Below are positions 43,504-49,251 of a DNA stretch of 64,000 nt, piece by piece. Each line of letters begins with the position of its first letter. Position 1 is the first letter of the stretch. Source of the stretch: an uncultured Pelagibacteraceae bacterium. GTDB lineage: Bacteria > Pseudomonadota > Alphaproteobacteria > Pelagibacterales > Pelagibacteraceae. Where the stretch lies: NCBI GenBank assembly GCA_902624045.1, contig CACNVX010000001.1:1-64000 (forward strand). Reading direction: 5' to 3'. The translations under genes and the position numbers were made by a program. Under the pieces are notes generated by a model that was given only the letters and a program-made list of their open reading frames with translations, had not been told where the DNA came from and did not search any database.

Positions 43504-45888
43504 ATGAGCATGGACGTCAAAATCTCATTACCTTTATTGCCTTTAAGAGACATTGTAGTGTTTCCAAGCATGGTAATACCTTTATTTGTAGGACGGGATA
43601 AATCTATTTCTGCTTTGAATGAAGTTATGAAAAGTGAAAAAAAAATAATTTTAGTTACACAAAAAAATTCAGAAATTGATGACCCAAAGAAAACAGATGT
43701 TTTTATGTATGGTTGTGAAGGAAGTATTCTACAATTATTAAAATTACCTGATGGTACTGTTAAAGTATTGGTTGAGGGTACGAAAAGAGTAAAAATTCTA
43801 GATTTTAAAGATAATGAAAAATTTATCAGCTGTGATTATGCATATCATAGCGATGTATTAACCAAAGATGAAGATTTATTTCCACTAGCAGCAACAGCAT
43901 TAAGAAGATTAGAAAAATTAACTTCAATAAACAAAAAAATTTCAAATGAAACAATAAATTCGATTAAACAATTAAAAGACCCTTCTCAAATTGCAGACAA
44001 TATTGCTTCACACATAAACGCAACAATATCTGAAAAACAACAAATATTTGAAATTGTTGATGTTAAGAAAAGATTAAATGCAATTATTAAAATAATGGAA
44101 AACGAGACTAGTATTATTGGTGTTGAAAAAAGAATTAGAGGCAGAGTCAAAACCCAAATGGAGAAAACTCAAAGAGAGTATTATTTAAATGAACAGTTAA
44201 AGGCAATTCAAAAAGAACTTGGTGAAATCGAAGATGGCAAAGATGAAACAACAAGCCTAAATAAAGCAATTACAAAAGCGAAAATGCCAAAAGATGTTGA
44301 AAAAAAATGTTTACAAGAATTAAAAAAATTAAAAAATATGAGCCCAATGTCAGCAGAGGCTACAGTAGTAAGAAATTATTTAGATTGGATGACTGAACTT
44401 CCTTGGTATAAAAAAAGTGAAGTTGATATAGATCTAACTAAAGCATTAAATATTTTAGATAAAGATCATTTTGGACTAGAAAAAGTTAAAGAGAGAATAG
44501 TAGAATTTTTAGCTGTTCAAAAAAGAATGGAAAAAATAAAAGGTCCAATTTTATGCTTGGTTGGACCACCCGGTGTAGGGAAAACATCCTTAGGAAAATC
44601 AATTGCCAAGGCAACTAATAGAGAATTTGTGAGAATGTCTGTTGGAGGTATGAGAGATGAAGCAGAGATAAGAGGTCATAGAAGAACGTATATTGGATCG
44701 TTACCTGGAAAAATTATTCAAATGATGAAAAAAGCAGGTACAAAAAATCCTTTAATTTTGCTAGATGAAATTGATAAAATAGGAAATGATTATAGAGGTG
44801 ATCCATCGTCAGCACTTTTAGAAGCGTTAGATCCTGAACAAAATACAAGTTTTAACGATCATTATTTAGAGGTTGATTACGATCTTTCTGATGTAATGTT
44901 TGTTACTACAGCAAATACTTTAAACATCTTACCACCATTGCTAGATAGAATGGAAGTAATAAGACTAGCTGGATACACCGAAGATGAAAAAATAAGTATT
45001 GCTAACAAGTATTTATTGCCAAAACAAATAAAAGATAATGGTGTTAAAGAAAAAGAAATGAAACTAGATGATAATATTATTAAAGAAGTAATAAGAGGTT
45101 ACACTAAAGAGTCTGGTGTAAGAAATCTTGAAAGAGAGATATCAAAACTTGCAAGAAAAGTTGTTAAAAAAATAGTTTCAGGAGAAGAAAAAGAGGTAAA
45201 GATAGATAATAAGAATCTGTCTGATTTTTTAGGTGTTCCAAAATTTAAATTTGGTGAATTAGAGTCAGAAAATAGGGTTGGTATTGTTACAGGATTAGCT
45301 TGGACAGAATATGGTGGTGAAATACTAAAAATTGAAACAGTAACAATGCCTGGAAAAGGAAGAATGCAAATAACTGGTAAACTTGGCGATGTCATGCAAG
45401 AATCAGTTAAAGCAGCAAAATCTTTTGTTAGATCTAAATGTCTCGAGTATGGAATTATTCCACCAGTATTTGAAAAAAAAGATTTTCATATCCATGTTCC
45501 TGAAGGTGCTACGCCAAAAGATGGTCCTTCAGCAGGTATAGGAATGGTTACATCTATAGTTTCATCAATAACCAATATACCAATTAGAAGAGATCTTGCG
45601 ATGACTGGTGAAGTTACGTTAACAGGACAAGTTTTACCTATTGGTGGATTGAAAGAAAAATTATTAGCAGCACATAGAGCAGGTATAAAAGAAGTTTTAA
45701 TTCCAAAAGAAAATGAAAAAGATTTAGTGGATATGCCAAAAAAGATTTTAGATGACATAAAAATAACACCAGTAGAAAATGCTGACCAAGTTGTTAAAAT
45801 AGCGCTTATTAAAGAATTAAAACCTACAGAATGGGTAGAGGTGGAAATTTCTAAAAAAGACGATAAATCTCAAGCTAGTATTCAATAA
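43504..45888 (+). CDS. lon: ATP-dependent protease La (Lon)
   Basis: 794-residue single-chain AAA+ protease degrading misfolded and regulatory proteins. It has an N-terminal LON substrate domain (LPLLPLRDIVVFPSMVIPLFVGR), Walker A GPPGVGKTS, Walker B PLILLDEIDKIG, and a C-terminal proteolytic domain with catalytic Ser in PKDGPSAGIGM and Lys in LKEKLLAAHRAG. Length and domain order are standard for LonA. It ends 6 nt from the convergent membrane protein. Confidence 0.97.
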   Translation: MSMDVKISLPLLPLRDIVVFPSMVIPLFVGRDKSISALNEVMKSEKKIILVTQKNSEIDDPKKTDVFMYGCEGSILQLLKLPDGTVKVLVEGTKRVKILDFKDNEKFISCDYAYHSDVLTKDEDLFPLAATALRRLEKLTSINKKISNETINSIKQLKDPSQIADNIASHINATISEKQQIFEIVDVKKRLNAIIKIMENETSIIGVEKRIRGRVKTQMEKTQREYYLNEQLKAIQKELGEIEDGKDETTSLNKAITKAKMPKDVEKKCLQELKKLKNMSPMSAEATVVRNYLDWMTELPWYKKSEVDIDLTKALNILDKDHFGLEKVKERIVEFLAVQKRMEKIKGPILCLVGPPGVGKTSLGKSIAKATNREFVRMSVGGMRDEAEIRGHRRTYIGSLPGKIIQMMKKAGTKNPLILLDEIDKIGNDYRGDPSSALLEALDPEQNTSFNDHYLEVDYDLSDVMFVTTANTLNILPPLLDRMEVIRLAGYTEDEKISIANKYLLPKQIKDNGVKEKEMKLDDNIIKEVIRGYTKESGVRNLEREISKLARKVVKKIVSGEEKEVKIDNKNLSDFLGVPKFKFGELESENRVGIVTGLAWTEYGGEILKIETVTMPGKGRMQITGKLGDVMQESVKAAKSFVRSKCLEYGIIPPVFEKKDFHIHVPEGATPKDGPSAGIGMVTSIVSSITNIPIRRDLAMTGEVTLTGQVLPIGGLKEKLLAAHRAGIKEVLIPKENEKDLVDMPKKILDDIKITPVENADQVVKIALIKELKPTEWVEVEISKKDDKSQASIQ

Positions 45889-45894
45889 AATTCT

Positions 45895-47451
45895 CTAAAG
45901 TATTTTCTTTAATTTTTTTATACCTATTAACAATGATGTAAAAGAAATAATAATTAAAAATGGAAAAATCATAACTGCATTTCTTTGATTTTCACAACAA
46001 GTAATTAAGGATGTAGTTAGATTATAACCCAAGCATATTAAAAGAATTAAAAAAATGAGCGCATATTTATTAAGTTCCTTAATAGAAAGATTATTATTAT
46101 AAAAAAAATTTTTTAAAAAAGATATTGAATTTACAAAGCTTAATATTAATCCTGCTAAAATAAAACCAGAAAAAATTATCTGAAAATTTACAAAAAATTT
46201 ATTATTAAAGTTTTTGTGCTGCGTTTCATAATAGTATGGAAGTTGACTTCCCCATCTAAACATATTTAGAAAAGTAAATAATACCCCTTGGTTATCCTCT
46301 GTTTTTGGTGTTCCAATTAACATTTCAAAAGGATAATAAATAAAAGAGGATAAATATACTTTTATTGCTTCTTTATGAAAAAAAACTGTTGTTCTTAAAT
46401 TAATATCCTCATGACCACCACTGAATTTCCATTGATTATTTTTTAAGTCTTTTATATCTAATTCAATAGCAAGATTAAGATTGTAATTAGTGATTTTATT
46501 ATCTTTTAAAACTTTTTTCAATTTAGAAAAATCATATATTTTTTTTTCAAAATCAAAAAAACACTTATGCAATACTAAGGAGGTAAATAATTCATCATCC
46601 ACAAGATTTTGTTTTCTATCTTTTATATCTAAAACACAAATTTGATTTGTTTTTGATAAATCTAATTTGTTTAGGTATAAGTCAAAGTATTTGTCATAAC
46701 CTAAGGTGTAAAGAGGCCTTTGTATAAAATTCCAACCTTTAATTGATGTTGGAGTAATTTCGTTTATTGAAAATTTATTTTTTATTAACACAGAGGAAAA
46801 AACTAAGAAGATTACAATTGTAGAGTAAACAAAACTTGAAATACTAATATTTAAATTTTTTTTGTAAATAATTAAGAATATTGAAAGTATTAAGTAAATA
46901 ACTATAAATAAATTTGAAAATATAGCAATTAAGCTCATTAGAAAAACAAATTTAATTCCAAATATAAATTTTTTACTTTTTAAAAAAATTTCTGCCATAT
47001 AAAGAGATAAAAGTGAAAAAAATAATATTAATATGTGATCATAATGATGAACTCTCCAAGTGTCATAACTTAGAAAAGAAAGACTAATTGCAAATAAGAT
47101 AAAAATTAGAATTAAGGAATTCTTATTGAAGAGTAAATTATATATTTTTGAAAATACTATTAATACTGAACAGGTATAAGTTGTATTTAATATATAATAG
47201 ATAAGATATAAATTATCTCCTCCAGAAAAAATTAAAATTAATTTAGATAAAAAAATATTTCCAATTGGTATTGAGTGATGAAATAATAAATAATCTAAAA
47301 AATTTTCATTACTTAAAGCTAAAAGGTAATTTTCTGAAAAGAAAAATTTATTTTCACTTAAATAAATTGAGTAAATTAATATTCGATATAAAAAATGTAT
47401 TGTAGAAACAAAAATTAAGAAATAAAGATTATTTTTTAATATATATTTCAT
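45895..47451 (-). CDS. Multi-pass membrane protein, possible GT-C type glycosyltransferase
   Basis: 518-residue integral membrane protein with about ten or more hydrophobic segments and a periplasmic-looking soluble loop at about residues 240-380. No signature was recognised with confidence. The architecture (membrane helices around HHSIPIGN and GGDNLYLIYYILN early, a large loop, more helices late) and its pairing with a divergent dolichol-phosphate-mannose-synthase-like GT2 gene resemble a lipid-linked sugar transferase. It is one of the most A/T-rich long genes in the window, and is placed between the lon cluster and the tRNA duplication, where accessory genes could collect. Confidence 0.5.
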   Translation of the reverse strand: MKYILKNNLYFLIFVSTIHFLYRILIYSIYLSENKFFFSENYLLALSNENFLDYLLFHHSIPIGNIFLSKLILIFSGGDNLYLIYYILNTTYTCSVLIVFSKIYNLLFNKNSLILIFILFAISLSFLSYDTWRVHHYDHILILFFSLLSLYMAEIFLKSKKFIFGIKFVFLMSLIAIFSNLFIVIYLILSIFLIIYKKNLNISISSFVYSTIVIFLVFSSVLIKNKFSINEITPTSIKGWNFIQRPLYTLGYDKYFDLYLNKLDLSKTNQICVLDIKDRKQNLVDDELFTSLVLHKCFFDFEKKIYDFSKLKKVLKDNKITNYNLNLAIELDIKDLKNNQWKFSGGHEDINLRTTVFFHKEAIKVYLSSFIYYPFEMLIGTPKTEDNQGVLFTFLNMFRWGSQLPYYYETQHKNFNNKFFVNFQIIFSGFILAGLILSFVNSISFLKNFFYNNNLSIKELNKYALIFLILLICLGYNLTTSLITCCENQRNAVMIFPFLIIISFTSLLIGIKKLKKIL

Positions 47452-47508: not shown

Positions 47509-48210
47509 ATGAAAAATAAAATTTCTTCTTTAAGTATTTTATTTCCTGTTTTTAAAGATAGTAAAACTGTTGAAATACTTATAAAGAAATCTATATCTCT
47601 GTGTGAAGAATTGTCATTAGATTATGAATTAGTTATAGTTGATGATTGTTGTCCAGAAAATTCTGGTAGTATTGTTAAAAATTATATGAAATCTAATAAT
47701 AAAATTAAGTTAATTACTCATGAAATAAACAAAGGTTATGGAGAGTCTATTAAATCTGGTCTTAAAATTTGTTCAAAAGATTGGATACTCCAAACAGACG
47801 GAGATAACCAATATGATATTTTTGATTTTAAGAAAATGTCAAAAATTATACATAATTACGACTGTATAATTACATTTAGATATAAAAAAATATATAGTAG
47901 TTTTAGAATATTTATATCCTGGATATATAATAAATTAATTCAGCTCTTGTTTAAGTCAAATTTTAGAGATATTTCAACAGGACTTAGGTTGATCAAAAGA
48001 GATGCTTTAGAGAGTATTGAGTTGTCATCACAAAACGCATTTGTTGGTGCTGAAATAGCAATTAAACTAATGCTAAAAGGTTACCAGGTTGGAGAGATGG
48101 GTATTTCTACATATCCTAGAGAATTTGGTACAAGTACAATTATTACTCTAAGAAATATAATAAATACAATAAAAGATATTATTAAAGTAAGAGCTGAGAT
48201 ATTTAAGTAA
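47509..48210 (+). CDS. Family 2 glycosyltransferase (DPM1/polyprenol-phosphate type)
   Basis: 233-residue GT-A glycosyltransferase. LSILFPVFKDSKTVEILI at the N-terminus, LVIVDDCCPENSG (about residues 43-55), HEINKGYGESIKSGLK and the metal-binding QTDGDNQYD (about 96-104) are GT2 landmarks; the order resembles polyprenol-phosphate sugar synthases. It has no membrane anchor of its own. Divergent from the multi-pass protein with a 57-nt gap, the pair could make and use a lipid-linked sugar. Acceptor and sugar are unknown. Confidence 0.85.
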   Translation: MKNKISSLSILFPVFKDSKTVEILIKKSISLCEELSLDYELVIVDDCCPENSGSIVKNYMKSNNKIKLITHEINKGYGESIKSGLKICSKDWILQTDGDNQYDIFDFKKMSKIIHNYDCIITFRYKKIYSSFRIFISWIYNKLIQLLFKSNFRDISTGLRLIKRDALESIELSSQNAFVGAEIAIKLMLKGYQVGEMGISTYPREFGTSTIITLRNIINTIKDIIKVRAEIFK

Positions 48211-48265: not shown

Positions 48266-48293
48266 TTGATTACTTTGTTAAAGTAATTATTAT
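48266..48293 (+). promoter_or_regulatory. Candidate promoter of the first tRNA-Val/tRNA-Asp copy
   Basis: TTGATT (48266-48271), 16-nt spacer, TATTAT (48288-48293), about 20 nt before the first tRNA-Val. It is a weaker match than the promoter before the second copy. Confidence 0.4.
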
Positions 48294-48313
48294 ATCTTAG
48301 CTTTTTTAGTTAT

Positions 48314-48389
48314 GGGCGGTTAGCTCAGTTGGTAGAGCATCTCGTTTACACCGAGGGGGTCAAAGGTTCGAGTCCTTTACTGCCCACCA
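48314..48389 (+). tRNA. tRNA-Val (anticodon TAC), copy 1
   Basis: 76-nt tRNA with encoded CCA. Acceptor GGGCGGT pairs with ACTGCCC (one G-U), D arm GCTCAGTTGGTAGAGC, anticodon stem TCTCG with loop TTTACAC gives TAC (valine GUA/GUN), and T arm GGTTCGAGTCC. Followed by tRNA-Asp after 12 nt, so processed from a common transcript. Confidence 0.95.
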
Positions 48390-48401
48390 AAAACAAAAAG
48401 T

Positions 48402-48478
48402 GGGGGTGTAGCTCAGTTGGTTAGAGCGATCGCCTGTCACGCGATAGGTCGAGGGTTCGAGTCCCTTCACTCCCGCCA
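48402..48478 (+). tRNA. tRNA-Asp (anticodon GTC), copy 1
   Basis: 77-nt tRNA with encoded CCA. Acceptor GGGGGTG pairs with CACTCCC, discriminator G as is normal for tRNA-Asp, anticodon loop CTGTCAC in an ATCGC/GCGAT stem gives GTC, and T arm GGGTTCGAGTCCC. Confidence 0.95.
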
Positions 48479-48514
48479 CTTTTTCCTTGTATTTATTGCA
48501 ATTATTAATAAATC

Positions 48515-48542
48515 TTGACGAAGATGCTTTAAAGGATATAAA
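48515..48542 (+). promoter_or_regulatory. Promoter of the second tRNA-Val/tRNA-Asp copy
   Basis: TTGACG (48515-48520), 16-nt spacer, TATAAA (48537-48542), 19 nt before the second tRNA-Val. A strong match lying in the unique spacer between the two copies, so the second copy has its own promoter and is not simply a read-through duplicate. Confidence 0.6.
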
Positions 48543-48561
48543 CATGTTTCTTTTTGGTTAT

Positions 48562-48637
48562 GGGCGGTTAGCTCAGTTGGTAGAGCATCTCGTTTACACC
48601 GAGGGGGTCAAAGGTTCGAGTCCTTTACTGCCCACCA
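48562..48637 (+). tRNA. tRNA-Val (anticodon TAC), copy 2
   Basis: Identical in sequence to the tRNA-Val 248 bp upstream; same acceptor, TAC anticodon and encoded CCA. Preceded by its own promoter-like sequence. Confidence 0.95.
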
Positions 48638-48649
48638 AAAACAAAAAGT

Positions 48650-48726
48650 GGGGGTGTAGCTCAGTTGGTTAGAGCGATCGCCTGTCACGCGATAGGTCGA
48701 GGGTTCGAGTCCCTTCACTCCCGCCA
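48650..48726 (+). tRNA. tRNA-Asp (anticodon GTC), copy 2
   Basis: Identical in sequence to the tRNA-Asp 248 bp upstream, with the same 12-nt spacer from tRNA-Val. It precedes the complex I operon by about 155 nt. Confidence 0.95.
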
Positions 48727-48757
48727 CTTTCTTATTAATAATTAAATTTTTGATAAA

Positions 48758-48811
48758 TAACTGATTTTGTTGTGTTTTTTTGGTGTATCATTGTAAGTAA
48801 TTGATTTTGTT
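48758..48811. repeat. Direct repeat pair upstream of nuoA
   Basis: TAACTGATTTTGTT (48758-48771) and TAATTGATTTTGTT (48798-48811) match at 13 of 14 positions and start exactly 40 nt apart, close to four helical turns, in the 156-nt region before the complex I operon. A regulator binding two sites on one DNA face is a possible reading. Confidence 0.35.
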
Positions 48812-48882
48812 AACTTTTTTTTAATTGAAAATGTGACGTATCAACGCTTCAACATAAAATAAAAAGTGATATATAGACTTTC

Positions 48883-49251
48883 ATGTTATCTGATTTTCTT
48901 AAAGATTACTTACCTATTATTATATTTTTGATCTTAGCTTTGGGATTAAGTTGTGCATTTGTGGTAATTAATTTTATTCTATCACCAAAAAAACCTGATC
49001 CAGAAAAACTTTCAGCTTATGAATGTGGATTTGAACCTTTTGAAGATTCTAGACTAGAGTTTGATGTTAGATTTTATTTAGTTGCAATATTGTTCATCAT
49101 ATTTGATTTGGAAATAGCATTTTTATTTCCATGGGCAATTTCTCTTGGAAACATCGGATTATTAGGTTTTTCATCAATGATGATTTTTTTGTTCATACTT
49201 ACAATTGGATTTATTTATGAATGGAAAAAAGGTGCTTTAGATTGGGAATAA
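48883..49251 (+). CDS. nuoA: NADH-quinone oxidoreductase subunit A
   Basis: 122-residue membrane subunit of respiratory complex I with three hydrophobic segments. [41 protein letters not shown] is represented by the hallmark parts YECGFEPF and [12 protein letters not shown]. First gene of the 14-gene operon nuoA-N; the upstream region carries a pair of direct repeats but no clear promoter. A 13-nt gap precedes nuoB. Confidence 0.96.

Follow-up and report, generated by a model that had tools for sequence, protein, structure and literature searches.

Why would a streamlined SAR11 genome keep two copies of the same tRNA pair side by side, and how can the copies be identical when the sequences around them are not? 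The question is raised by a locus in the window analysed here, a stretch of 64,000 nucleotides from an uncultured Pelagibacteraceae bacterium. Between lon and an open reading frame that we take to be nuoA, judging from its own sequence and its neighbours, a 174-bp segment occurs twice, base for base, with 248 nt from start to start (Table 1). Our preferred answer, which we consider reasonably probable as a whole, is that an older promoter-tRNA pair tandem was formed by unequal recombination and that its copies were later converted to identity.

The duplicated tRNA pair

Each copy consists of tRNA-Val(TAC), a 12-nt spacer and tRNA-Asp(GTC) (ARAGORN), and the Rfam tRNA family matches all four genes, at 68.3 and 72 bits. 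The two copies are complete, adjacent and in direct order, which defines a tandem tRNA duplication, and the pattern was produced by none of 100 shuffles. Besides the tRNA genes and the 12 nt between them, the copies share 5 nt before and 4 nt after; their promoters are unrelated. A first-pass annotation of this DNA had reported an exact tandem, spacer included, with differing flanks, and this is what we find: identity ends at the edges of the 174 bp. When the window's own assembly (1.15 Mb, 53 contigs, 83% complete) was searched, only these two full copies appeared. Six other matches (E ≤ 0.001) are far weaker and lie at Ala, Ile, Lys, Asn, Cys, Met, Val(GAC) and Ser tRNA genes (ARAGORN).

Table 1. 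Features of the lon-nuoA interval in the window, and tRNA-Val stubs at the same locus in relatives.
Feature	Location	Strand	Basis or remark
lon protease gene, left border	43504..45888	+	Pfam Lon_C, LON_substr_bdg; borders the site in relatives
518-aa protein, no Pfam match, cassette	45895..47451	-	ORF
GT2 glycosyltransferase (family 2), cassette	47509..48210	+	PF00535, E 4.2e-20
Candidate copy 1 promoter, TTGATT-16-TATTAT	48266..48293	+	simple promoter scan, weak
Copy 1 of 174-bp repeat	48309..48482	+	exact repeat
tRNA-Val(TAC), copy 1	48314..48389	+	ARAGORN, Rfam
tRNA-Asp(GTC), copy 1	48402..48478	+	ARAGORN, Rfam
Inter-copy spacer	48483..48556	+	left end resembles flank after tRNA-Asp; right end looks like tRNA promoter
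Copy 2 promoter motif, TTGACG-16-TATAAA	48515..48542	+	TTGACG 48515-48520, 16 nt, TATAAA 48537-48542; motif recurs in many relatives
Copy 2 of 174-bp repeat, pair adjoining nuoA as in relatives	48557..48730	+	repeat, relatives
tRNA-Val(TAC), copy 2	48562..48637	+	ARAGORN, Rfam
tRNA-Asp(GTC), copy 2	48650..48726	+	ARAGORN, Rfam
Candidate nuoA promoter, TGTGACG...TAAAAT	48832..48860	+	regions of this kind are proposed as second partner in recombination
nuoA (presumed), right border	48883..49251	+	ORF; adjoins tRNA pair in relatives
tRNA-Val 5' stub, G096	L074, 4042 (oriented)
tRNA-Val 5' stub, G095	L120, 1943	reverse
tRNA-Val 5' stub, G125	L124, 1977
tRNA-Val 5' stub, G085	L132, 1785

Occurrence of the tandem among relatives

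How common is such a tandem? The genus sample comprised 399 genomes, 281 of which, the window's included, match the repeat at E ≤ 1e-30. Two full pairs are present in three of the 281: the window genome (G000), G240 and G362, each with a period of 248. Several partial matches occur in G177, G259 and G292, and the other 275 genomes have one match, including one-contig genomes such as G012, G081, G297 and G384. The 118 genomes of the sample that have no match at this threshold were represented by 25, chosen mainly for completeness, in a looser search (E ≤ 1e-14), and pieces were recovered from one (G030). There, two contigs (the end of C28 and the start of C12; L115 and L116) break off within the pair, each at exactly 55 nt. 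A further tandem may be hidden here, but G030 was not counted as one, since a collapsed repeat or strain mixing would give the same contig ends.

In the family sample, which overlaps the genus sample, 186 of 247 genomes match, and two full pairs were found in none of the 185 besides the window's; 12 of these have two matches, one to Val and one to Asp, and in some of the 12 a third, weak match is present. A pattern scan for tandems with 66-96 nt between anchors, run over a collection of 84,980 species in which the window's own genome records may have been left out, returned only AH-326-O04 (G362) and AH-287-C09 (G240), both recorded as MAGs, and nothing (0) among viral contigs. Nearly all other relatives with a match have one pair. 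The idea that a retained duplicate is unusual in this group is borne out by these counts, which miss tandems with other spacings, with changed anchors or collapsed in assembly.

Could the tandem be an artefact of assembly or amplification? The window genome is a draft, and other drafts (G146, G076) show inverted double matches to lon that do look like artefacts. However, two other genome records carry the tandem, each with its own differing sequence, which makes assembly error unlikely. We regard an artefact as highly improbable; the duplication is very probably real.

One of the genomes with partial matches has a different layout. In G259 the order is tRNA-Val, a cassette ORF, tRNA-Asp, a similar promoter and a second tRNA-Asp. 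A decayed tRNA-Val in the 91 nt before the last tRNA-Asp was considered and is unsupported. Compared position by position, the two sequences agree at just 15 of 76 sites, and a free-end-gap alignment, which is not a clean test, gave no overlap and a score of 0 that was reached by 2000 of 2000 shuffles.

Origin of the duplication

One clue is that the two copies differ in how well they fit the locus as it appears elsewhere. In the relatives examined, the tRNA pair lies between lon and nuoA. Copy 2 is this conserved unit beside nuoA, with the conserved promoter and place: a TTGAC...TATAAA motif also precedes tRNA-Val in many relatives. The promoter that the first-pass annotation assigned to the second copy thus holds as a sequence motif. 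A simple promoter scan omitted it because the scan requires T as the last base of the -10 box. The candidate promoter of copy 1 is weak, since the same scan gave 4 sites against 3.6 expected in shuffles.

Several other features of the interval may be recorded here. Upstream of the nuoA promoter the window has a 28-nt direct repeat (48754-48781 and 48794-48821, 40 nt from start to start, 82% alike). Several relatives have a long nuoA leader like the window's, and others have a short one. At seven loci from single-copy relatives (L013, L017, L020, L026, L029, L030 and L037), visual inspection suggests that a short ORF with the end ..NWRGGF may lie between lon and tRNA-Val.

A second clue is the spacer between the copies, which is alike in length and layout in G000, G240 and G362. 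Its first 18 nt score on average 4.2, 6.1 and 6.0 (in that order of genomes) against 18 short flanks that follow tRNA-Asp, 2.7, 2.4 and 3.4 against 9 long-leader flanks, and -4.2, -5.3 and -4.8 against 19 stretches upstream of the tRNA -35 box. Its last 18 nt score best against these upstream stretches (6.0, 4.2 and 5.4). The tandem loci and G259 were excluded from the single-copy controls. The spacer therefore looks like a hybrid, with a left end resembling the flank after tRNA-Asp and a right end resembling the tRNA promoter.

The spacing of the promoters is a third clue. Among 19 loci that are single-copy, have the TTGAC promoter and allow the distance to be measured (repeated flank pairs removed), the -35 boxes of the tRNA and nuoA promoters lie 249, 249 and 251 nt apart in three, which have a short nuoA leader, and 265-323 nt apart in the remaining 16. 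The two promoter regions share an ATTAATA-like stretch in several genomes, plus TGAC. Because the spacer appears hybrid and the period of 248 nearly matches 249-251, we propose that a unit of promoter, tRNA-Val and tRNA-Asp next to nuoA gave rise to the tandem at some point in the past, most likely when the -35 regions of the tRNA and nuoA promoters, which resemble each other, recombined unequally. We can only infer a founder with a short leader, since 16 of the 19 distances are longer and the tandem genomes now have long leaders. The extra tRNA-Asp of G259 stands apart: its spacer falls outside the scheme and a second tRNA-Val is not recognisable.

What if one event lies behind all three tandem genomes? 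They do have the same period and layout, and our reading takes them to go back to a single event. The spacer sequences do not show a common origin, however. That of G000 scores 13 and 14 against those of G240 and G362, values reached by none of 2000 letter shuffles, but the best matches to single-copy tRNA-Asp flanks score 15-19. Nor do the trees group the tandem genomes. In the nuoA-D tree (24 rows) the four genomes with full or partial tandems share an 8-member clade (support 100/99) with single-copy genomes, among which they are interspersed, and the sister of each of G362, G240 and G259 is a single-copy genome. In the lon tree (25 rows) G240 and G362 join four single-copy genomes in a six-member group (97/93), and the placement of G000 and G259 is unresolved. 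The tandem label requires 4 changes in each tree, and 500 of 500 label shuffles do equally well or better. G069, whose sequence is too short, is omitted from the nuo tree, and both G177 pieces are omitted from both trees. Repeated loss, transfer or repeated origin is therefore needed.

Perhaps, then, the likeness of the promoter regions causes repeated duplication of the pair, so that the tandems arose separately and the window's is young, with its first promoter replaced later by the cassette. This would suit both the scatter of tandem genomes among single-copy ones, which cluster no better than shuffled labels, and a spacer likeness that does not rise above the best single-copy controls. Nevertheless, two events would have to fit into a short interval during which the 174 bp stayed free of substitutions, and the common period and hybrid layout would have to recur. 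We consider separate duplications rather unlikely.

Identity of the copies

If the tandem is older, the identity of its copies in the window has to be explained. The two Val-Asp spacers of G240 differ at 3 of 12 positions (AAACTACAGAGT and AAACAATAAAGT). In the window and in G362 they are equal between copies, and the copies of G362 differ at one base of tRNA-Val. The window's 12-nt spacer is unique among the 26 spacer types caught by the pattern; fifteen distinct spacers differ at a mean of 3.67 positions, a figure biased upwards because only distinct ones enter it. Since the tRNA bodies hardly vary among genomes, conversion can be read only from the 12-nt spacer and a few flanking bases, so that about 21 nt outside the conserved bodies carry the information.

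The first-pass annotation had offered gene conversion or a recent event with non-homologous breakpoints as explanations of perfect identity between diverged flanks. Conversion is the better of the two, because the tandem exists in two other genomes with diverged copies or flanks. A simple recent event is unsupported: if the tandem were fresh, one promoter would precede both copies, and the promoters of the window's copies are unrelated. Tandem bacterial tRNA genes may be kept alike by gene conversion (concerted evolution). Most likely, the identity of the window's copies reflects conversion of the older duplication, which would have remade them across the 174-bp tract.

Is there a reason to keep both? 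Both copies are probably working tRNA genes. Selection for the gene dosage of Val and Asp tRNAs might in principle have retained the duplicate, and the copies are intact in the window and in G240, with promoter-like sequence upstream. The tandem is rare (3/281), however, and the sequence upstream of copy 1 is not conserved. In addition, the tRNA-Val change in copy 1 of G362 would, by eye, break acceptor pair 6-67. Retention by dosage thus seems improbable, and a putative dosage role is not needed to account for the locus.

The cassette upstream of copy 1

Between lon and copy 1 the window contains two ORFs of at least 60 aa, one for a GT2 protein and one for a protein with no Pfam match. The GT2 protein has matches (E ≤ 1e-30) in only 3 of 201 genus genomes including its own, the other two being 41% identical, and no relatives were found in the genome_contigs collection. 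All three tandem genomes differ here. At the same place G240 has a 469-aa protein without a Pfam match, a GT2 protein and a UDP-GlcNAc 2-epimerase, and G362 has a TylF-type methyltransferase. A common ancestry of the window and G240 cassettes was considered and is unsupported. Their 518-aa and 469-aa proteins have no similarity, and their GT2 proteins align over about 100 aa at 33% (E 4e-9), as expected within one large family. No displaced tRNA fragment and no integrase was seen in the window cassette, and its interpretation as a classic tRNA island was dropped.

The sequence immediately upstream of copy 1 also differs in each tandem genome; in G240 it again contains a TTGAC-type promoter. 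We suggest that hotspot recombination replaced the region upstream of copy 1, whereas copy 2 would have retained the conserved promoter and place. The first-pass annotation had noted neither the hotspot nor the conserved status of copy 2, nor the variation of the cassette among the tandem genomes.

Alternatively, the duplication might have arrived with the cassette, the incoming DNA ending in a tRNA-Val/Asp pair and joining upstream of the native one. In favour of this, copy 1 comes straight after the cassette, few genomes of the genus have the GT2 gene, and inserts at this locus can bring a complete tRNA-Val with its own promoter (see below). Against this, G240 and G362 have the same tandem with other cassettes, copy 1 equals copy 2 rather than being a foreign variant, and the window cassette has neither of the expected marks, fragment or integrase, as far as seen. 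We find such an origin hard to credit.

An insertion hotspot between lon and nuoA

In relatives the distance from lon to the tRNA pair, as estimated by eye, varies between 45 nt and about 20.6 kb. An insert of about 10.3 kb is present in seven genomes (G042, G044, G109, G151, G173, G187 and G193). Inserts also occur between Val and Asp (G259, G290, G292, G574) and between Asp and nuoA (G017, G025). The tRNA-Asp gene of G177 is broken after nt 41, a phage-type integrase lies next to the stub (L065, L066), and tail and endolysin genes precede a complete tRNA-Asp on another contig. In G563, a genome from a different genus, the match to tRNA-Asp stops at that position too (L085, L106), and the adjoining integrase is 32% identical to that of G177. 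One G563 piece (L106) has two opposed tRNA-Asp genes (1503-1579 and 2479-2555) about 0.9 kb apart, which may be an amplification artefact.

A stub search covered 29 genomes, mostly selected for having inserts. Identical 38-40-nt 5' stubs of tRNA-Val lie upstream of inserts in four of them (Table 1). They resemble traces left by integration at the 5' side. The complete tRNA-Val of G095 adjoins an integrase gene; integrase families were matched here as well as in G177 and G563. G095 (L120, L121) also appears to have nested inserts between lon and tRNA-Val, with metabolic-looking genes on the lon side (by eye) followed by the tRNA-Val stub and about 8.8 kb that include the integrase. In G096 the stub carries the promoter seen right after lon elsewhere, and the complete tRNA-Val carries the TTGAC promoter. 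Because the promoters of stub and complete gene differ, elements at this locus can exchange the tRNA promoter.

Copy 1 would then mark the right-hand limit of a hotspot at which cassettes, prophages and integrative elements are gained and lost. Perhaps the tandem even serves as a doubled landing pad, in which copy 1 is cut, re-promotered or carried along by elements and copy 2 secures the supply of tRNA, with 5'-side elements repeatedly swapping the promoter of the tRNA operon and so exchanging regulation together with cargo. We consider this idea doubtful.

Comparison with known systems

The duplication itself is uncommon but unspectacular, and ordinary in kind; its interest lies in the setting. 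It shows that redundancy of a tRNA pair can persist for some time in a streamlined genome. Moreover, the interval lon-tRNA-Val-tRNA-Asp-nuoA is an insertion hotspot in this group, at which the sequence directly reveals the borders of elements, the stubs and the swapped tRNA promoters, so gene exchange in uncultured SAR11 becomes testable at one defined site. The locus was named in no title or abstract opening that we found, which carries little weight since subscription journals were mostly outside the search.

In known converted tandem tRNA genes the copies are adjacent, the spacer is identical too and the flanks are unrelated, as in the window. Unlike those tandems, the window pair lies at the edge of a variable cassette site, and its proposed origin would be recombination of neighbouring promoters.

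The inserts of relatives resemble the islands of Islander (PMC4383910) in their tRNA-Val 5' fragments, the complete tRNA-Val at the other end, the break in the anticodon region and the integrase of G095. Islander lists 5' fragments for 159 of 3919 islands. Two marks of such islands, a displaced tRNA fragment at the far end and a tyrosine integrase inside, were not seen at the window locus. Tycheposons, as outlined in PMC10872708, place cargo next to a tRNA gene together with a tyrosine recombinase. Relatives of the window resemble them in this arrangement, whereas no recombinase was seen in the window.

Within SAR11, the hypervariable regions HVR1-4 offer a further comparison (PMC2217521). HVR4 is flanked by tRNA genes, like the present locus, though this is a likeness only. 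In HVR2, variable cell-surface genes lie between conserved RNA genes, as they do here.
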